A DNA stretch of 64,000 bases, taken from contig JAHIQM010000015.1 in the NCBI GenBank assembly GCA_018902545.1, positions 124,001 through 188,000 of the forward strand, read 5' to 3'. A program made the position numbers and the translations under genes. Source of the stretch: Pseudomonadota bacterium (GTDB taxonomy: Bacteria; Desulfobacterota; Desulfovibrionia; Desulfovibrionales; Desulfomicrobiaceae). Under the pieces are notes generated by a model. That model did not search any database. It was given only the letters and a program-made list of their open reading frames with translations, and was not told where the DNA came from. Below, piece by piece: positions 1,199-11,475 of the stretch; within the stretch, counting starts at the first letter, position 1; each line of letters begins with the position of its first letter.

Positions 1199-2080
1199 TT
1201 AGATGACCTTGTTCAGGGAGTACTCGATGATGGCCTGCGCTCCCACGGTCTGCAGCTTCGGCACCAGATCGCGGACCTGACAGATCTCGACCACCGTCTC
1301 GATGGACAGCCAGTCGGAATTGTGCAGATGGGCGATGGTCGGGGAGTTCATGCTCGGCAGAAGCGCCATGACCTTGTCCACGACATCGGCCGGAGCATTC
1401 ATTTTCAGAGCCACCAGCTTGTCGGCCCGCAGCGCCCCCTGCAGGAGGGTGTTCATGTTCTCGATCTTGGCCCGCTTCCATGGGTCCTTCCAGGACTCCT
1501 TGTTGGCGATGAGCTGGGTGTTGGTCTGCAGCAGCTCGGCGATGATACGCAGGCCGTGGGCCTTGATGGTCGTGCCAGTCTCGGTGATCTCGACGATGGC
1601 GTCCACCAGCCCTTCAACAACCTTGGCCTCGGTGGCACCCCAGGAATATTCCACCTCGACGGGAATTCCCGCTTCTTCGAAATAACGTTTGGTGAAGCTC
1701 AAAAATTCCGTGGCAATCTTCTTCCCGGCCAAGTCCTCAGGCCGCTTGTACGGAGAGTCACCGGCCACGGCCAGCACCCACTTGGCCGGACGATTGCTGG
1801 CCTTGGAATAGACCAGGTCGTCCACGATGACGACGTCCGACTGGTTCTCAAGGATCCAGTCCTTGCCCGTCAGTCCGGCGTCGAGCAGACCGTTTTCCAC
1901 GTAGCGAGCCATTTCCTGGGCCCGGCACAGGGAGCAGGTCAGTTCAGGGTCGTTTATTTCCGGGAAGTAGTTCCGGTGGTGCGAGGTCACCTTCCAGCCA
2001 GCCTTGGCGAAAAGCTTGACCGTGGCCTCTTCCAGGGAACCCTTCGGAATTCCGATGCGCATCTGTCTTCCATCAACCAT
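1199..2080 (-). CDS. hisG: ATP phosphoribosyltransferase (long form)
   Basis: Catalyses the first step of histidine synthesis, ATP + PRPP to phosphoribosyl-ATP. The 293-residue length is that of the long HisG form, with a catalytic domain followed by a C-terminal ACT-like regulatory domain where histidine feedback normally acts, so HisZ should not be needed. It opens [19 protein letters not shown], and GLTGKDWI belongs to the catalytic fold. The ATG overlaps the hisI stop by one base (TAATG), with AAGGAGG upstream, so the two are translationally coupled. Only hisI and hisG of the pathway are here; the other his genes must lie elsewhere. Confidence 0.93.
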
Positions 2081-2457
2081 TATTTGTAAACCTCCTTGGG
2101 ATCGAACACCATGGGGGAGCAATCCGTCCACTGCCCCTGTGCGTCTCGTTCACGAAAAAAACAGCTTCGGCGGCCCGTGTGACAGGCCGCCCCACCGACC
2201 TGCTCAATCTTAATCAGCACCGTGTCCCGGTCGCAATCCAGGCGGATGGAGCGGACCTTCTGCACATGCCCGGACGTGCCGCCCTTGTGCCACAGGGTCT
2301 TACGGCTTCGGCTGTAGTAATGGACCTCGCCGGTGCGCAAGGTCTCGTTCCAGGCGTCCTCGTTCATGTAGGCGAGCATGAGCACCTCGCCGGAGGTCTC
2401 GTCCTGGGCGATGGCCGGGATGAGGCCGCCGCATTTATCAAAATCAGGCTGTTCCAT
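2080..2457 (-). CDS. hisI: phosphoribosyl-AMP cyclohydrolase
   Basis: A 125-residue single-domain HisI that opens the adenine ring of phosphoribosyl-AMP, the third histidine step. Family motifs are visible: [27 protein letters not shown] and the metal-binding run [10 protein letters not shown] ... CHTGRRSCF. It lacks the HisE pyrophosphohydrolase domain found fused in many proteobacteria, so hisE must be a separate gene. The start overlaps the end of rlmN by 14 bases and the stop overlaps the hisG start, so rlmN-hisI-hisG read as one transcript. Confidence 0.95.
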
Positions 2458-3526
2458 TTTGCGGTCCTTCGTTGATCATCGTCGAATCCATGCGGCCCTG
2501 CACCTCGGTCTTGAGTTGACCACAGGCAGCCGCGATATCCTGCCCCTTGCTCTTGCGCAAGGTCACGGTAAAGCCCTTTTTGCGCAGAAGCTCCTCGAAG
2601 GCCAGCACATCCCCGGTTTCCGGGGCGGCATAGTCGATGCCCGGGCCGGGATTGTAGGCGATGAGGTTGATCTTGCATTTGAGGTGCGACAGCAGCCGCA
2701 CCAACTGCCTGGCGTGCTGAAGCGTGTCGTTGACGCCCTTGATCAGAATGTACTCGATGGTGACACGCTCCCGGGCCTTGAGCTCAAGGCCCTGGAGGGT
2801 CAAGATCAGGTCGTCGATGGGCCAGCGGGCCGCGCCGGGCATGAGCTTCTCCCGGATCTCCTGGGTCGGGGCGTGCAGGGAGATGGCTGGCAGGGCCAGA
2901 CCCTCGGCATCAAAGACACCAAGCTTGCCCCTAATGGCGCAGGTCGAGAGCGTGATGCGGCGGCGCGAAAATTCAAGCCCCTCCGGATGGGAAAGGATCT
3001 GCAGACTGCGCCGCACCTCTTCCCAGTTGGTCAGGGGCTCGCCCATGCCCATGTACACGAGATTCTTCACTTCATCGGCCAGGCCGTGCACACGCAGATA
3101 GTCCCTGGCCACGAGCACCTGGGCCGCGATCTCCCCGCCGGTCATGTTGCGCGAAAAACCCATCAGCCCCGTGCTGCAGAAGGTGCAGCCCATGGGACAG
3201 CCAATCTGGCACGACAGGCACTGGGTATAGCGTTCCCTGTCCGGAATGAGCACGGTCTCGACCAGGGCACCGTCAGCCAGACGCAGCAGCAGCTTGACCG
3301 TGCCGTCGCTGCTGGTCTGGACCTCGTGTACCTGCGGCCAATAAAGGGCCCACTCCCGCTCAAGCTGCTCCCTGAAATCCCGGGCCAGATTGGTCATGGC
3401 CGAAAACTCCCGCACACCCTTGCGCCACAGCCACTGCCACAGCTGCCGGGCCCGGAAGCTTTGGTGCCCCATGGCCTGCACAGCCGCTTCGAGTTCGAGG
3501 CAGGTCAACTCAAGAATATTGCGCAT
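2444..3526 (-). CDS. rlmN: dual-specificity 23S rRNA/tRNA C2-adenosine methyltransferase
   Basis: A 360-residue radical SAM enzyme that methylates A2503 of 23S rRNA (and A37 in some tRNAs) at C2. The radical SAM cluster motif is CPMGCTFC within [25 protein letters not shown] is the SAM-binding GEP region; the C-terminal Cys in AAACGQL fits the methyl-carrying cysteine. Start [13 protein letters not shown] at 3526 with GGAG just upstream; a longer reading would add an unrelated 11-residue leader. It overlaps hisI. RlmN typically has no functional link to histidine synthesis, so this is probably shared transcription only. Confidence 0.95.
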
Positions 3527-3552
3527 GACACTCCACTGTCCGGAATCGCAAA

Positions 3553-3587
3553 GGCACAAGGGGCTTCAAACAGCAACTCCTCGTGCC
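3553..3587 (-). repeat. hairpin upstream of rlmN
   Basis: GGCACGAGG and CCTTGTGCC (read on the minus strand) form a 9-bp stem with one G-U pair and a 17-base loop, between the stop of the HD-family pseudoenzyme and the rlmN start. It is followed only by TTT, so terminator strength would be weak. It may partly insulate the two genes. Confidence 0.35.
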
Positions 3588-3623
3588 TTCCACGGAAAAA
3601 AAACCAACACGGATCAACCCCGA

Positions 3624-4946
3624 CTAGAGCTGCTCCTTGGCCTTGTAGGCGGTCACAAAGCGCTCGGCCTCCTCCACGGTGTTCACGTCCCCGGCGATCT
3701 GGGCCTGGAGCAGGTTGTCGCGGATCAGACCCACGGCGGGACCGGGCTTTATCTTGGCGATGTCCATGATCTGCTTGCCGTTCAGCAGGGGTTCGAGCAG
3801 CTCTTCGCGGATATCGGCCCGTTCCAGCATCTTCATGTTGTGATTGAATTCGGTGTACTTGGCATTTCTGGCCTTGATGTCGGCCCGGGCCATCTCGATG
3901 AGGCGCGGATAGTCATCCACGGCCTTGAAACGGCGGATGCCCTTGTCTGTCAGCATGAAGTGGAAGCGCATGTGGTTGCGCACCAGATTGACGATCATGT
4001 CCACTTCTTCGGTGTTGAGGCGCAGGCGCTTTAAAATCTTGCGCGTGACCTTGGCCCCGATGCGGTGGTGCTGGTAGAAAGTTGTACGCCCGTCGTAGAC
4101 CTCGCCGGCGTAAAGCTTGCCGCAGTTGAGGAACAGGCAGCCCATGGTGCCGTACCAATCGTAGGGCAGTTCCTCGGGGTAGTGACTCATGACCTTCAGG
4201 GTGTGTGCCCAGATGGACACGGAGCCGGACTCCTCGTCAAAGACCTGGAAAATGCGGCTCAGGGCCGCGAGCTCCGGCACCAGCCCGTGCAGGATCATGG
4301 AGTTGAACAAGAGCTCCGCGAAACGCCACATGTTCTCGGCCTCGACCTTGCGCCACTCGTCCATGATGTCCGTGACCGAAACGTAATCGAGCACCCGGCG
4401 CGAGGCGCGGACAATGGACATCCAGGAATTTTCCTCGATGGGCAGATGATAGTTGGCCGAAAAACGCAGGGCGCGGATGGCCCGCAGGTAGTCGTGCTTG
4501 AGCGTCTCGTCGGGAATGCCCTGGAATTTGACCAGGCCGCCGGAGATGTTCTCGAACCCGTCGTACACGTCACGGGAGCGAGGGATAAAAGGGCAGGCCA
4601 AACTCACGGGAAAGCTGTCGTCCGCCTCCAGTTTCTTAAGCATATTGGCCGTGATCTGGGCCACGCAGGCCTCGGGATGCGACGCGTCGGCCATATCCCC
4701 GGGATGAAACAGAAAGGTCGTGTTGCTCTGGTCCATGCGGGCCACGATCTCCCCGCTGCCAGGAACCACTTCGGGAAAAAGATTTTTGAGGCCGGCAAGA
4801 TCGATATCCGTGCAGATCTCCACCTCGGCAGCCTTGGACGTGCCAAGAATCTTGCTCTGCAGCGCGGCATTGATGACGTAGGCGTCAAAGCCATTGCGCA
4901 TGATGGTTTTGCAGATGGAGGCGGCTTCTTTTATCGGCTGAGGCAT
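3624..4946 (-). CDS. degenerate CCA-adding/poly(A) polymerase-type nucleotidyltransferase with degenerate HD domain
   Basis: A 440-residue protein with the layout of the class II tRNA nucleotidyltransferase/HD family: N-terminal head (1-110), the RNA-binding neck (LRAIRALRFSA near 155-163), then an HD-type helical domain (245-310). Both catalytic centres look lost. The GGxVRD and DxD region reads NGFDAYVINAAL and VEICTDID (residues 18-49), and the metal-binding HD pair of the HD domain reads LFLNCGK (271-277), although the flanking histidines at 248 and 293-294 remain. It is therefore probably a pseudoenzyme, perhaps an RNA-binding or regulatory protein; the real CCA enzyme would be elsewhere. 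ATG at 4946 has AAGGAG six bases upstream. It sits between the PilR-like gene and rlmN. Confidence 0.8.
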   Translation of the reverse strand: MPQPIKEAASICKTIMRNGFDAYVINAALQSKILGTSKAAEVEICTDIDLAGLKNLFPEVVPGSGEIVARMDQSNTTFLFHPGDMADASHPEACVAQITANMLKKLEADDSFPVSLACPFIPRSRDVYDGFENISGGLVKFQGIPDETLKHDYLRAIRALRFSANYHLPIEENSWMSIVRASRRVLDYVSVTDIMDEWRKVEAENMWRFAELLFNSMILHGLVPELAALSRIFQVFDEESGSVSIWAHTLKVMSHYPEELPYDWYGTMGCLFLNCGKLYAGEVYDGRTTFYQHHRIGAKVTRKILKRLRLNTEEVDMIVNLVRNHMRFHFMLTDKGIRRFKAVDDYPRLIEMARADIKARNAKYTEFNHNMKMLERADIREELLEPLLNGKQIMDIAKIKPGPAVGLIRDNLLQAQIAGDVNTVEEAERFVTAYKAKEQL

Positions 4947-5004
4947 CAAGGTCTCCTTGAATGAGCGTGTTCGTTAAAGGCTGCGCCCGAGTATCGGATG
5001 CAAT

Positions 5005-6378
5005 TTAAATATCTTCATCTTTTTCCCCCGACTTGGTCAAGCGGTAGCGGAACTGCCGGAAGTTGAGGCCGACCATTTCCGCCGCCCGCCCCTTGTGTCC
5101 ACCGCAACGTCGCAGCGCCTCGGAAATGACTCTGTGCTCATGATCGGCCAGATACTCGTCGAGGGTCATCTGACCCGACAAGACCTTCTGGGATCCGCCG
5201 TCCTGATCGGTGGAGGAAATTTTCTCGTAGATGACCAGGGAATCCGCCGTGATCGTGTCTCCGGGCTCCAACGCCACAGCCCGCTCCACGATGTTTTCCA
5301 GTTCGCGGACATTGCCCGGGTACGTGTAGGCCAGAAGCTTCCTGCGCGCCTCGGCGGTGAAGCCGCGCAACAGGCGCTTCTGGGCGCGGCAGGCCTTCTC
5401 AAGAAAATGATCGGCCAGGGTCAGCGCGTCGTCGCCGCGTTCGCGCAGCGGGGGCAGATGCACCTTGACCCCGCTCAGGCGGTAATAGAGATCCTCGCGG
5501 AAATCGCCGTCGGCCACGCTTTGCTCCACATTGCGATTGGTGGCCGCGATGATGCGCACGTCCGAGCGCAGTTCCTCCGTGCCGCCAAGGGGAATGAAGC
5601 AGCGCTCCTGAACGTAACGCAAGAGCTTGACCTGGGTGGAATGGGCAAGCTCACCGACCTCGTCCAGAAAAAGGGTCCCACCCTCGGCCATTTCAAGGAG
5701 GCCCTTCTTGGCCCGGTCCGCGCTGGTGAAGGCGCCTTTGCGAAAGCCGAACAATTCGCTTTCAACCAGATTGTCGGGCAGCCCTCCACAGTTGATGGCC
5801 AGGAACGGTTGTTTCGCGCGTTGGCTCTGGCTGTGGATGCAGCGAGCGAAAAGCTCCTTGCCCGTGCCAGACTCGCCGGTCACCAGCACGCTGATGTTGG
5901 TCGGGGCGATGCGCCGGACCAGATCGAAGACGGCCTGCATCTGCTGGCTGCGACCGATGATCTCGCCGTACTGCTTGCTGATCTGTCCCTTGAGCCAGTC
6001 GTTCTCCTCCTTGAGACGGGCCGTCTCCAGAGTGCGTTCCACTGTATAGAGGAGGTCATCAAGCTCGAAGGGCTTTGAAATGTAGTCTTTGGCCCCGTGC
6101 TTCATGGCCGTGATGGCGCTCTTGGCGTCGGCATAGGCCGTGACCATGAGCACCGGCACGTCGGTCCAGGTCTCGCGGATGCGGATCAAGAGGTCGATGC
6201 CGCTTTCCCGGCCCAGACGCAGGTCCAGGAGGATGAGTGCAATGGACTGCTGCTGCATGACGGCCAAGGCCGCGGCCGAATCGGGCGCGGTCCAGACCGT
6301 GTGCCCCTTCTTGATCAGGGCGATCTCCAGCACCTCGCGCAGGCTGAGGTCGTCATCGACGATGAGTATGTTGGCCAT
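5005..6378 (-). CDS. PilR-like sigma54-dependent response regulator
   Basis: A 457-residue NtrC-family activator: receiver domain (1-120; ILIVDDD, phospho-acceptor in LLDLRLG, Lys in SKPFE), AAA+ domain (about 135-370; Walker A GESGTGKE, Walker B GGTLFLDE, PPLRER) and a C-terminal Fis-type helix-turn-helix. The HTH ends LNFRQFRYRL, close to the FRSMRYRL of PilR, the regulator of type IV pilin genes. The sigma54-contacting loop is GAFTSA rather than GAFTGA. No kinase gene is adjacent; the PilS-like kinase at 38796-40445 is a possible partner. Start MANILIVDDD was chosen over an upstream in-frame ATG. Confidence 0.85.
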   Translation of the reverse strand: MANILIVDDDLSLREVLEIALIKKGHTVWTAPDSAAALAVMQQQSIALILLDLRLGRESGIDLLIRIRETWTDVPVLMVTAYADAKSAITAMKHGAKDYISKPFELDDLLYTVERTLETARLKEENDWLKGQISKQYGEIIGRSQQMQAVFDLVRRIAPTNISVLVTGESGTGKELFARCIHSQSQRAKQPFLAINCGGLPDNLVESELFGFRKGAFTSADRAKKGLLEMAEGGTLFLDEVGELAHSTQVKLLRYVQERCFIPLGGTEELRSDVRIIAATNRNVEQSVADGDFREDLYYRLSGVKVHLPPLRERGDDALTLADHFLEKACRAQKRLLRGFTAEARRKLLAYTYPGNVRELENIVERAVALEPGDTITADSLVIYEKISSTDQDGGSQKVLSGQMTLDEYLADHEHRVISEALRRCGGHKGRAAEMVGLNFRQFRYRLTKSGEKDEDI

Positions 6379-6420
6379 ATCCTTTCCTTCTCCCGGCGTG
6401 ATCCGGGTCAAGTCCGTTTC

Positions 6421-7725
6421 TCAAGGCCGTTTCAGGGCGACTGCCTCCAGCCTGGAAAAGACGGCCCGGCCTCCCAGAAAATGCGCCATGACCCGCCCCG
6501 GCACTTCCTTGTCAAGGCAGGGCGTGTTCTTGCCCTTGGACAGGAGCGCCCCGGCACTGGCCACCCAGGCCAGATCCGGATCGAAGAGCACGAAATCAGC
6601 CGGGTCGCCGGGCTGCATGCGGTTGGCGGGAAGGCCGAAGATATCGGCCGTGTTCCAGCACCACAGGCGGCTTAAGTCGGCAAAATCGAGCTCCCCGCTG
6701 CGCACCAGCTCGTAGGTCAGAGACAGAGCAGTATCGAGCCCCGAGATGCCGTTTGGCGCGTCGGCGAAGGTCACTTCCTTCTCGTGGGCGGCGTGGGGGG
6801 CGTGGTCGGTGACCAGGATATCGATGACACCCGTGCGCACGGCCTGGCGCAGGGCGAGCACGTCGTCGCGGGTGCGCAGGGGCGGATTGACCCGCACGCT
6901 GGTGTCATAACCCTCCACCCGCGATTCGTCCCAGAGCAGGTAATGCGGGCAGGTCTCCGCGGTGACTCTGACCCCGCGCTCCTTGGCGGAGGCAATGAGT
7001 TCCACGGACTGCCGGCAGCTGATGTGGGCCAGGTGGATGGGCAGGTCCAGATAGGAGGCCAGCAGGATGTCACGGGCGACCTGCATGGCTTCCGACGCGG
7101 TGGGGATACCCTTCAACCCCAGACGGCTCGACACCTCGCCCTCGTTCATGACCCCGCCTTTGCCCAGCCACGGGTCCTCGCAGTGGTCGATGACCTTCAG
7201 GCCGAAATCCGCCGCGTATTCCACTGCCCGACGGAAAAGCTCCGTGTTCTCGACAGGCAGGCCGTCGTTGGACAGGGCCACGCACCCGGCCCGGGCCAGC
7301 TCTCCGGCCGGGGCCAACTCCTTGCCCAAAAGGCCCACGGTCAGGGCGCCTACCGGACGCACCCACGGGCCATGCGGGAAGGCCAGGGCCGCCTTCTGGA
7401 GCATGAAGCGTGTTACCGAGGCGTTGTCGTTGACGGGGATGGTGTTAGCCATGGCCATGACCTGGCCAAACCCTCCCCCGGCCGCGGCGGACAGGCCGGA
7501 TGCGATGTCTTCCTTGTACTCCTGGCCGGGCTCGCGCAGATGCACGTGGGCGTCGATGAGGCTCGGCAGGAGGGTCAGCCCTCCCGCGTCGACAACCTCT
7601 GCTCCGGAAGGTGCGGCGACGGTGCCGGCCTCGGCCAGCTCCAGAATGCGGCCTTCACCAACGAGCAGATCGCAGCTGCGGTCCTCCCACGAAACATTGC
7701 GAATCACACAGTCTACTTGTGCCAT
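6421..7725 (-). CDS. pyrC: dihydroorotase (class I)
   Basis: A 434-residue amidohydrolase that cyclises carbamoyl aspartate to dihydroorotate in pyrimidine synthesis. The metal-binding DAHVHLREPG near residue 58, NDGLPVEN, HLAHIS and VTDHAPH motifs are all present, so it should be active rather than the PyrX pseudo-enzyme type. It lies 22 bases after pyrB, the usual bacterial pairing, in which ATCase and DHOase often form a complex. It should share the attenuator upstream of pyrB. Confidence 0.95.
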   Translation of the reverse strand: MAQVDCVIRNVSWEDRSCDLLVGEGRILELAEAGTVAAPSGAEVVDAGGLTLLPSLIDAHVHLREPGQEYKEDIASGLSAAAGGGFGQVMAMANTIPVNDNASVTRFMLQKAALAFPHGPWVRPVGALTVGLLGKELAPAGELARAGCVALSNDGLPVENTELFRRAVEYAADFGLKVIDHCEDPWLGKGGVMNEGEVSSRLGLKGIPTASEAMQVARDILLASYLDLPIHLAHISCRQSVELIASAKERGVRVTAETCPHYLLWDESRVEGYDTSVRVNPPLRTRDDVLALRQAVRTGVIDILVTDHAPHAAHEKEVTFADAPNGISGLDTALSLTYELVRSGELDFADLSRLWCWNTADIFGLPANRMQPGDPADFVLFDPDLAWVASAGALLSKGKNTPCLDKEVPGRVMAHFLGGRAVFSRLEAVALKRP

Positions 7726-7747
7726 GATACCACCATGTTGAAATTTC

Positions 7748-8680
7748 TCATGCCGAAACCCGGGTCCTGGTCAGGTACAGATGCAGCAGGGTCATGCGCA
7801 CGGCCACGCCCGAGGCGACCTGATCCAGAATCAGGCTCGCACCGCAGTCGGCCAGTTCGGAAGCGATCTCAAGGCCACGATTCATGGGGCCGGGGTGCAT
7901 GATCTTTACATCCGGATTGGCCTTCTCCAGATGCCGGGGGGCGAGCCCGTAGGTGCAGGCGTATTCACGCAGATCCGGCAGCAATCCCGCCTGCTGCCGC
8001 TCCAGCTGCAGGCGCAGGCAGATCACCGCGTCCACTCCCTCGCAGGCTTTGGCCACATCGGAAAAAACCTCTACCGGCCAGGTCTGGACCTTGGTCGGCA
8101 GGAGGGTGCGGGGCGCGCAGAGTCGCACCCGCGCCCCGAGCATGGTCAGCAGTTCCACATCGGAGCGGGCCACCCGGCTGTGGGCGATGTCGCCCAGGAT
8201 GCAGACCGTCTTGCCCGCAAAGGAGCCCCAGACCTGATGCAGGGTGAACCCGTCCAGAAGAGCCTGGGTCGGGTGGGCATGCCAGCCGTCTCCGGCATTG
8301 ATGACGGAGCAGGCCAGCCGCTCGGCCAGAAACCTTGCCGCCCCGCTGTCCCAGTGCCGAATGACGATGGCGTCGGGATTCATGGCCTGCAGGGTCAGGG
8401 CCGTGTCTTTGAGGCTCTCCCCCTTTTGCAGGGAACTGCCCGACTTGGTCAGACTGAAGGTGTCGGCGGACAGGCGCTTGCCGGCCATGTCGAAAGAGGT
8501 CTTGGTGCGCGTGGAGGCCTCGGCGAAAAAGAGGACTACGCTCTTGCCCTTCAGGATGGGCACCTTCTTGATGGGCCGCTGGTTCACTTCCGCGAACCGG
8601 GCCGACGTCTCGAAAATATGGCCGATCTCATCCACGTCGAGCTGGGATATCTCCAACAAGTCCTTGTGCCGCCAGTTCAT
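7748..8680 (-). CDS. pyrB: aspartate carbamoyltransferase, catalytic chain
   Basis: A 310-residue ATCase that makes carbamoyl aspartate from carbamoyl phosphate and aspartate, the committed pyrimidine step. Motifs: STRTKTSF (carbamoyl phosphate), [16 protein letters not shown] and MHPGPMNRG. No pyrI regulatory chain is adjacent. The start at 8680 (MNWRHKDLL) follows AAGGCGGAG and overlaps the stop of a 40-codon leader ORF as ATGA. Control is probably by the attenuator at 8727-8760. Confidence 0.95.
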
Positions 8681-8799
8681 AGCTCCGCCTTGCCGCCCCT
8701 GCGGGGGTTGTGATTGCACCGTGACCAAAAAAAAGGGACTCGGCTGCTCGCCCGTCCCTTGCTACTTACGTACCGCACGGTTTTTCGTACACGTTTCAT
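8677..8799 (-). CDS. putative PyrL-like leader peptide of pyrBC
   Basis: A 40-codon reading frame, [14 protein letters not shown]..., that runs through the terminator hairpin ahead of pyrB, encodes Pro-Phe-Phe-Trp in the CCT-TTT-TTT-TGG of its U-run, and ends overlapping the pyrB ATG (ATGA). AAGG lies nine bases before its start. The layout is like E. coli pyrL, where the ribosome following RNA polymerase at low UTP blocks the attenuator. It is also rich in basic residues. Nothing proves it is translated; it could be a fortuitous frame. Confidence 0.5.
8727..8760 (-). terminator. intrinsic terminator/attenuator upstream of pyrB
   Basis: On the minus strand AAGGGAC pairs with GTCCCTT, with an inner GGC/GCC pair, followed by a run of eight Ts. 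It lies about 46 bases before the pyrB ATG and inside a leader reading frame. It is too far from gyrA, which has its own terminator at 8866-8895, so an attenuator of pyrBC is the best reading. Confidence 0.75.
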
Positions 8800-8865
8800 G
8801 CCAAGGGGCCTTACACGACCGGGCTCTTGACGTCCAGTACGACGGTGGATTCCGGCGGGTATCCT

Positions 8866-8895
8866 AAAAAAAGGCGCGCCCCAGCGGAGCGCGCC
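8866..8895 (-). terminator. intrinsic terminator of the dnaA-dnaN-gyrB-gyrA transcript
   Basis: On the minus strand GGCGCGC and GCGCGCC form a 7-bp GC-only stem with a 9-base loop followed by seven Ts, 27 bases after the gyrA stop. It separates the replication genes from the pyrimidine block. Confidence 0.85.
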
Positions 8896-8922
8896 CGAAT
8901 CAGCGTTCAAAAACCCACAGGT

Positions 8923-11475
8923 CTATTCCTGCGACTCCTCGGGTTCATCGAGCATCTCGTCATCATCGGGCAGATCCGCATCATCCAGACCGATGGGATC
9001 TTCCAGATCCAAATCCGCCGAAGGCACGATCGCACGCGGCACACCGCTTACTTCCGGAGCATCGGTCGGCACATGGTCGAAGCAGACCACGGTCTGTTCG
9101 TCTTCAAGGCGAACCAGCCGCACTCCCTGGGTGGCCCGCCCGACCAGACTGATGTCGGAGATGCCGATGCGGATGATCTTGCTGCCCGAGGTCAGGAGGA
9201 TGAGCTCATCCGTGGGATAGACCATCATGGCACCGACAACCTTGCCGGTCTTGGGGGTGATGCGCATGTTGATGATACCCTTGCCGCCGCGAGACTGGGC
9301 CCGGAAATGCTCGACCTGGGTGCGCTTGCCGTAGCCGTTCTCGGCGATGGTCAGAAGCTCCTGTTTGGTGTCCTTGTTGACCACCACTCCGGCCACGACC
9401 TGATCGCCCTTGCGCAGGGCCAGACCTTTCACGCCTGTCGCGGTACGACCCATGGCGCGCACATCGGAGCAGGCGAAACGAATGGAATAGCCGTCCACCG
9501 TGACCAGCACCATCTCGTCGCTGGTCTCCACCTCGCGCACGCCGATAAGCTCATCGTCGTCACGCATGCCAAGGGCAATGAGACCCACGGCGCGGATGTT
9601 GCGATAGAGATGGACGGAGCTGCGTTTGACCACGCCGAGCTTGGTGTAGAAGAAATAGAATTTCTCCTGGTCCAGATCGCGGCAGGTCATGGCCGCTGCG
9701 ATGTATTCGTTGCTGTCCAGCGGCAGCAGATTGGCCACGTGCTTGCCCCGGGCCGTGCGGCCGCCTTCGGGAATCTGGTGCACCTTGACCTGGTACATCT
9801 TGCCCTTGTTGCTGAACAGATTCATGTACTGGTGGTTGGAGGTCGTCAGGATGAAGGTGATGAAATCCTCCTCCGCGACCTGCACCCCGGTGATGCCCGT
9901 GCCGCCACGTCGCTGCTGGCGGTAGTTGTCGAGGCTGGTGCGCTTCAAGTACCCGTTGCGCGACAGGGTGATGACGACCGGCTCGTCGGGGATGATGTCC
10001 TCGATGTCGATGGAATCGGGATCATGGGCCAGAATTTCGGACTTGCGCGGCGTGGCGAAGTTGTCGCGCAGATCCTGCAGCTCCTGCCGGATGACGGATT
10101 TCAGGACTTCCGTGTTGTCGATGACGCTGGTCAGGTATTCGATCTGCTTCAAGAGCTCGGCATATTCCTCCAGGAGCTTTTCGCGCTCCAGGTTGGTCAG
10201 CCGCTGCAGACGCATGTCGAGAATGGCCTGAGCCTGGATCTCGGACAGGCCGAAGCGTTCACGCAGACGCTCCTTGGCCTCCTGCGGGGTCTTGGAGGCG
10301 CGGATGAGCGCGACCACTTCATCGATGAAATCAAGGGCGATGCGCAGACCTTCAAGGATGTGCGCCCGATGCTGGGCCTTCCTGAGGTCGAAGCGGGAGC
10401 GGCGGATGACCACCTCGCGGCGGTAGTCCAGAAAATACTCCAGCACCTGCTTCACGTTCAGCAGCTGGGGCCGGTTGTTGACGACCGCCATCATGTTGAT
10501 GCCAAAGCTGGTTTCGAGCGACGTGAACTTGAAGAGCTGATTGACGATCACATCGGAGAAGACACCCTTTTTGAGGTCCATGACGATGCGGATGCCCTTC
10601 ATGTCCGACTCGTCGCGCAGGTCGGAGATGCCCTCGATCTTGCGTTCGTTGACCAGCATGGCGATCTTTTCCACCAGGGTGGACTTGTTCAGGGCGTAGG
10701 GAATCTCTTTTACGACAATGGATTCCAGATCCCCTTTGCGCTTTTCGATCACAATACGCGAACGGATGCGCACCGAGCCGCGACCGGTGCGGTAGGCCTC
10801 GCGGATACCGGCCTTGCCGTAGATGAGCGCGCCCGTGGGGAAATCCGGGGCCTTGATGTACTGCATCAGCTCATCGATGGACGTCTGGGGATCGTCAAGC
10901 AGCCGCAGGGTCCCGTCGACCACCTCGCCCAGGTTGTGCGGCGGAATGTTGGTGGCCATGCCCACGGCGATGCCCGAGGAACCGTTGACCAGAAGATTCG
11001 GGACCTTGGTCGGCAGGACCGAGGGCTCCTGCAGGGAGTTGTCGTAGTTGGGACGAAACTCCACCGTGTCTTTTTCAATGTCGGCCAAAAAGGAGCTGGC
11101 CAGCTTTGACATGCGCACTTCGGTGTAACGCATGGCCGCCGCGGAGTCGCCGTCGATGGAACCGAAGTTGCCCTGGCCGTCGACCAGGGGATCACGCATG
11201 TTGAATTCCTGAGCCATGCGCACCAAGGCGTCGTACACGGCCGAGTCGCCATGAGGGTGAAACTTGCCGATAACGTCACCGACCACGCGGGCGGACTTCT
11301 TGTAAGCCCGGTTGTACGTGTTGCCGAGCTCATGCATGGCGAAAAGGATACGCCGGTGAACGGGCTTGAGGCCATCGCGCACATCCGGGATGGCCCGGCC
11401 GATGATGACGCTCAGTGAATATTCCAGATATGATTTCTGAAGTTCTTTTTCGATACTGATGTTGGACACATCCAC
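8923..11475 (-). CDS. gyrA: DNA gyrase subunit A
   Basis: The 850-residue DNA-cleaving subunit of gyrase, which introduces negative supercoils with GyrB. The catalytic tyrosine is in AAAMRYTEV; the quinolone-determining region reads [17 protein letters not shown] with the susceptible-type Ser and Asp; the GyrA box is QRRGGTG. The C-terminal beta-pinwheel is followed by a very acidic tail (residues about 820-850), a known modulator of supercoiling in other GyrA proteins. It follows gyrB by 32 bases. Confidence 0.98.

Follow-up and report, generated by a model that had tools for sequence, protein, structure and literature searches.

A class II tRNA nucleotidyltransferase paralogue of Desulfovibrionales without the nucleotidyltransferase motifs, and the repeated loss of its HD dyad

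Two described enzymes are the nearest reference points for the gene reported here. In the Aquifex CC-adding enzyme AaS, Asp58, Asp60 and Asp112 are catalytic, Asp182 and Arg185 recognise the base, and the tail binds the tRNA at its T-psi-C and D loops (PMC3925840). In the CCA enzyme of Mycobacterium tuberculosis, the change DLD57-59ALA affects nucleotidyltransfer and H298A removes the phosphatase activity (PMC10673834).

The window (the whole stretch of 64,000 nucleotides that was analysed) carries on its minus strand a gene that starts with ATG at 4946 and stops at 3624. It encodes an intact frame of 440 residues with AAGGAG upstream, so the first-pass annotation was right to treat it as a real gene. 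The parts of the gene are the following.

3624 to 4946, minus strand: whole gene, a predicted nucleotidyltransferase-dead paralogue of HD-type class II tRNA nucleotidyltransferases, 440 aa (open reading frame; orthologues in 184/199 genomes of the order)
4953 to 4958, minus strand: Shine-Dalgarno-like AAGGAG just upstream of the ATG (read from the sequence)
4527 to 4946, minus strand: head, residues 1-140, remodelled nucleotidyltransferase domain with an approximate boundary (motif alignment)
4227 to 4526, minus strand: neck and upper body, residues 141-240 (alignment to 3wfo)
3852 to 4226, minus strand: HD domain, residues 241-365, with H248, L273-N274, H293, H294, H325 and D356 (alignment)
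4125 to 4130, minus strand: lost HD dyad, residues 273-274, LN (counted from the ATG at 4946)
3627 to 3851, minus strand: tail, residues 366-440, with the signatures FNHNxK (367-372) and P.GP.VG.IR..LL.AQ..G.V (alignment; weak Pfam tRNA_NucTran2_2)

In the head, NAALQS stood at the place of GGxVRD and E41-V-E43 at the place of DxD, and RRDFTIN was missing. The metal site had earlier been called replaced; this is slightly too strong, since the acids E41 and E43 survive at the DxD positions. Shifted acidic residues rebuilding the site had been named as the point to check by alignment, and on this point the two acids are still there while the remaining motifs have gone. In the HD domain we found LNCGK where HDxGK was expected, while H248, H293, H294, H325 and D356 were kept, and the neck motif D152..R155..RALRF and the tail were also retained. 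Thus the earlier description of a dyad replaced by LFLNCGK, with HD-domain histidines and neck motif kept, was accurate. D152 and R155 occupy the base-recognition positions Asp182 and Arg185 of AaS in the alignment to 3wfo. As judged from the aligned residues, we take the window protein to be altered at the places corresponding to the M. tuberculosis DLD and dyad histidine.

The best sequence and structure match in PDB was 3wfo (profile E 3e-41), with homology spanning neck, body and tail. We take 3wfo to be AaS, because the review PMC3925840, which gives no PDB code, covers the AaS structures from 2014 with residue numbers (Asp182, Arg185) that fit the 3wfo sequence. The AlphaFold model (mean pLDDT 85, pTM 0.59) matched 3wfo with Z 23.8 and 2.2 A over 236 residues, and the HD fold matched PhnZ 4n6w with Z 12.0 and 2.3 A over 123 residues. 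The protein has the class II tRNA nucleotidyltransferase fold by descent. Whole-chain superpositions were poor (Foldseek TM ~0.47), so the relative placing of the domains is uncertain. Pfam gave HD at 19 bits (cut-off 22) and tRNA_NucTran2_2 at 16.9 bits, both weak or sub-threshold, and no Pfam model recognised the head. The top NCBIfam model was TIGR02692 for actinobacterial CCA enzymes, which scored 110.8 bits against a cut-off of 438.8, matched from residue 125 on, and was found in 45/45 scanned members. The claim that the whole fold is kept therefore stands for neck, HD domain and tail, with the AlphaFold model in agreement, but the head is unseen by Pfam and the model has poor or low confidence around residues 87-90 and 114-127. 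Neither Pfam nor NCBIfam had a model naming this family, and a literature search found no description of it. The main text of a D. vulgaris mutant paper contained no matching term.

Orthologues were identified in 184 of 199 Desulfovibrionales genomes, representing 37 of 43 genera. A profile search of 149 genomes sampled from the class, all of them members of this same order, detected them in 144. In a sample of 198 genomes from the phylum, matches from outside the order reached ~147 bits at most. Twenty-three of these out-of-order matches were read, and they carried canonical GG, DxD-type and RDFT-type motifs, except for one in which the glycine-rich part is masked. The scope of the profile search was the phylum Desulfobacterota, and an additional scan of 85k species picks up close relatives only. 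Several genomes of 96-100% completeness were without the gene; it means that the gene is dispensable in some lineages and not universally essential. Two metagenome-assembled genomes had two family members each (L077 with L086, and L092 with L096), by duplication or mixed bins. Beside the dead paralogue, a canonical HD-type CCA enzyme (L161, L162) also occurred in certain genomes from another family of the order. One member (L187, genome G159) had a TAA stop inside the profile match and had also lost the HD dyad, leaving a 438-residue open frame.

We compared 130 distinct orthologues at the nucleotidyltransferase centre. None had GG at the glycine-rich motif (residues 22-32), where a conserved [VI]N[AT]xLQ was present instead (N26, L29 and Q30 conserved at 93-95%). 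RRDFT(IN) was found nowhere in any of the 130, and DxD was kept in two. Sixteen orthologues matched a GGx[VI]R pattern, but this is a different loop near residue 136 and was rejected as the glycine-rich motif. An acid (D/E) was present at position 43 in 128/130 and acid-x-acid in 82/130, while D152 and R155 occurred together in 39/130, including the window protein, and were changed to N/L in many others. For the third carboxylate there was no conserved acid at the likely strand (residues 76-82), a stretch where gaps interrupt the alignment of the head with active enzymes. The same motif loss was seen in L191 and L192, from another family of the order and outside the 130. The best explanation of these patterns would be a single loss of nucleotidyltransferase that predates or coincides with the root of the sampled Desulfovibrionales. 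Because of the acid at position 43 and the D152/R155 pair, some nucleotide or metal binding may remain.

The HD dyad was intact in 109 of the 130 orthologues and was LN in nine, and the remaining 12 had HA, HN, LD, SN, CN, MD or HG. HD loss as a family-wide trait was thus rejected, and the pseudoenzyme clade sharing both losses that the first-pass annotation proposed was not found; the dyad was lost repeatedly and recently. Nine distinct Desulfomicrobium orthologues share the LN dyad, and two of these come from single-contig genomes, so sequencing error, chance or a lone pseudogene was rejected. HDCGK, HACGK, HNCGK and LNCGK were all present among close relatives in Desulfomicrobium. H248, H293, H325 and D356 were all kept across the LN clade, and the Halodesulfovibrio CN/SN group had lost more HD ligands. 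A maximum likelihood tree of 99 orthologues and 10 canonical enzymes (quick search, SH-aLRT only, some open forks) placed the family as one clade with support 100, with the canonical Desulfobacterota enzymes as outgroup. By parsimony on this quick tree the dyad changed seven times or more, including once in the clade of the window, and the four-ligand set 13 times or more; these counts are approximate. We read the dyad changes as losses, since HD is present in the canonical relatives and over most of the tree. The LFLNCGK form arose by a recent loss within crown Desulfomicrobium. The HD domain kept 16 of 22 canonical-conserved columns, the most of any domain, which suggests that HD catalysis matters in most species, where the domain may still be a phosphohydrolase.

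Selection on the gene was estimated as dN/dS by the Nei-Gojobori method. The LN clade, with nine sequences, had 0.073 overall, divided into 0.136 for the head, 0.020 for neck and body, 0.054 for the HD domain and 0.072 for the tail. For the HD domain the value was 0.076 in the four nearest relatives, a mixed set of one HN, one HA and two HD-intact sequences, and the Halodesulfovibrio CN/SN group had 0.061 overall; across the groups tested the values were about 0.06-0.16. With a matched set of four sequences from Desulfomicrobium, dN/dS was 0.105 for the gene and 0.098-0.146 for hisG, ntrC, pyrC and rlmN, so the protein is held about as tightly as its neighbours. These selection data give good support to a selected role in Desulfomicrobium that does not involve the usual catalysis. 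The earlier proposal of a selected non-enzymatic role is well founded as far as polymerisation goes, given the intact frame, this strong purifying selection and a nucleotidyltransferase loss common to the whole order. The Desulfomicrobium protein is probably non-catalytic.

The neighbours of the gene were a sigma-54 response regulator of NtrC/PilR type (5005-6378) and rlmN (2444-3526), as already annotated. They belong to a same-strand run hisG-hisI-rlmN-gene-ntrC-pyrC-pyrB-gyrA at window positions 1199-11475. The part pyrB-pyrC-gene-rlmN-hisI-hisG recurs in many Desulfovibrionales, and among the loci examined only those of Desulfomicrobium and its close relatives have ntrC placed between pyrC and the gene. 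A functional hint from this context was rejected, because the recurring pyrB-pyrC-(ntrC)-gene-rlmN-hisI-hisG block consists of housekeeping genes and varies in its make-up. Scans for promoters and terminators did not exceed the level of shuffled sequence, and no tRNA gene was found within the window. The source genome had three canonical paralogues: a PcnB-like protein, a CBS-DHH-PolyA_pol protein and a short HD-containing CCA-like protein. PolyA_pol proteins were present in 81/81 genomes examined. With these proteins present, the cell need not rely on this gene for adding CCA or poly(A).

Some residues are conserved in this family only. FNHNxK (residues 367-372; window 3831-3848) was nearly invariant in the 130 orthologues, including the HD-lost ones, and was missing from the aligned active relatives. 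Together with D263-W264, W198-R199 and R409, it persists in the lineages where HD is lost, which points to a separate functional surface. The tail residues P386, G390, G402, P403, G406, A415, Q416 and G419 occur in active relatives as well. The net charge of the family was about -11.6, versus -2.9 for active relatives. Strong RNA binding is disfavoured by this more acidic character, while RNA binding as such is plausible by analogy of fold, the nearest solved relative being a tRNA binder; the earlier suggestion of "RNA binding or sensing" was a guess.

So we propose that a paralogue of class II tRNA nucleotidyltransferase with an HD domain lost nucleotide addition and was then kept for another job. 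Neck, body and tail could serve as a surface on which the top half of tRNA, or a tRNA-maturation partner, docks, and the remodelled head pocket (N26, L29, Q30, D/E43) might bind a ligand with no polymerising. In most species the HD domain would probably add phosphohydrolase activity of the kind found in CCA enzymes, and in Desulfomicrobium the protein would work without it. Taken as a whole, a nucleotidyltransferase-dead paralogue with a conserved job, whose non-catalytic nature we infer, and with HD activity as an extra in most species, has about an even chance of being the right account. The family might instead be primarily an HD phosphohydrolase (for example clearing 2',3'-cyclic or 3'-phosphates from RNA ends) with the dead head as scaffold, Desulfomicrobium being an exception that survives on a secondary role. 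The intact dyad of most orthologues, the good preservation of the HD domain and the known activity of such domains in CCA enzymes (PMC10673834) are in its favour, but the dyad changed at least seven times without gene loss and the HD domain of the LN clade is strongly constrained, and we consider it somewhat unlikely. In the Desulfomicrobium protein itself, catalysis by the HD domain through H248, H293, H325 and D356 is very improbable: all four residues are kept and the domain is constrained, but both dyad residues are gone, a related enzyme lost its phosphatase activity with the dyad histidine alone (PMC10673834), and the constraint is just as strong in Halodesulfovibrio, where more ligands are gone.

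An altered nucleotidyltransferase or nucleotide-binding activity through E41/E43 and D152/R155 would agree with the acid that is nearly always present at position 43, with the acid-x-acid of 82 orthologues and with the D152 and R155 pair of 39, including the window protein. It seems improbable, for the glycine-rich motif and RRDFT are lost everywhere, the third carboxylate is apparently lost, and D152/R155 became N/L in many orthologues. As for a decaying gene without function, the loss of two catalytic centres and its absence from some genomes could be explained in that way, but retention in 184/199 genomes, dN/dS far below 1 and invariant family motifs leave this next to no probability. A bolder reading is an order-wide regulator derived from a tRNA nucleotidyltransferase, with the NTP pocket rebuilt as a conserved ligand-sensing site for non-catalytic control of tRNA maturation or another partner. 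If the protein were such a regulator, the HD hydrolase could be lost repeatedly; we regard this idea as speculative and unlikely.

The family offers a natural series: of the two activities of the enzyme, one disappeared once and the other on repeated occasions, and HD, HN, HA and LN intermediates occur in closely related bacteria with selection ongoing. This makes the non-catalytic value of the CCA-enzyme scaffold testable in genetically tractable sulfate reducers. Automatic annotation as CCA enzyme would be wrong across the whole order.

Compared with known systems, AaS is alike in neck, body/HD and tail, but it has the catalytic Asp residues of the head and FHDIGK, whereas the window protein is without the head motifs and the HD dyad. 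The canonical Desulfobacterota HD-type CCA enzymes (L128, L130-L136, L140) share the full-length architecture and are the nearest in the phylum (about 124-155 bits), but they have their own GGxVRD, acidic DxD-type pair, RRDFTIN and HD dyad, and a long stem separates them from this family. The actinobacterial CCA tRNA nucleotidyltransferase (TIGR02692; M. tuberculosis Rv3907c) is alike as the top NCBIfam model, but the match is far below its cut-off and covers residue 125 onward only. Pseudo-nucleotidyltransferases such as NF45 resemble the state proposed here in having a nucleotidyltransferase fold without catalysis, but they belong to another family, the DZF proteins of eukaryotes, which have no HD domain.
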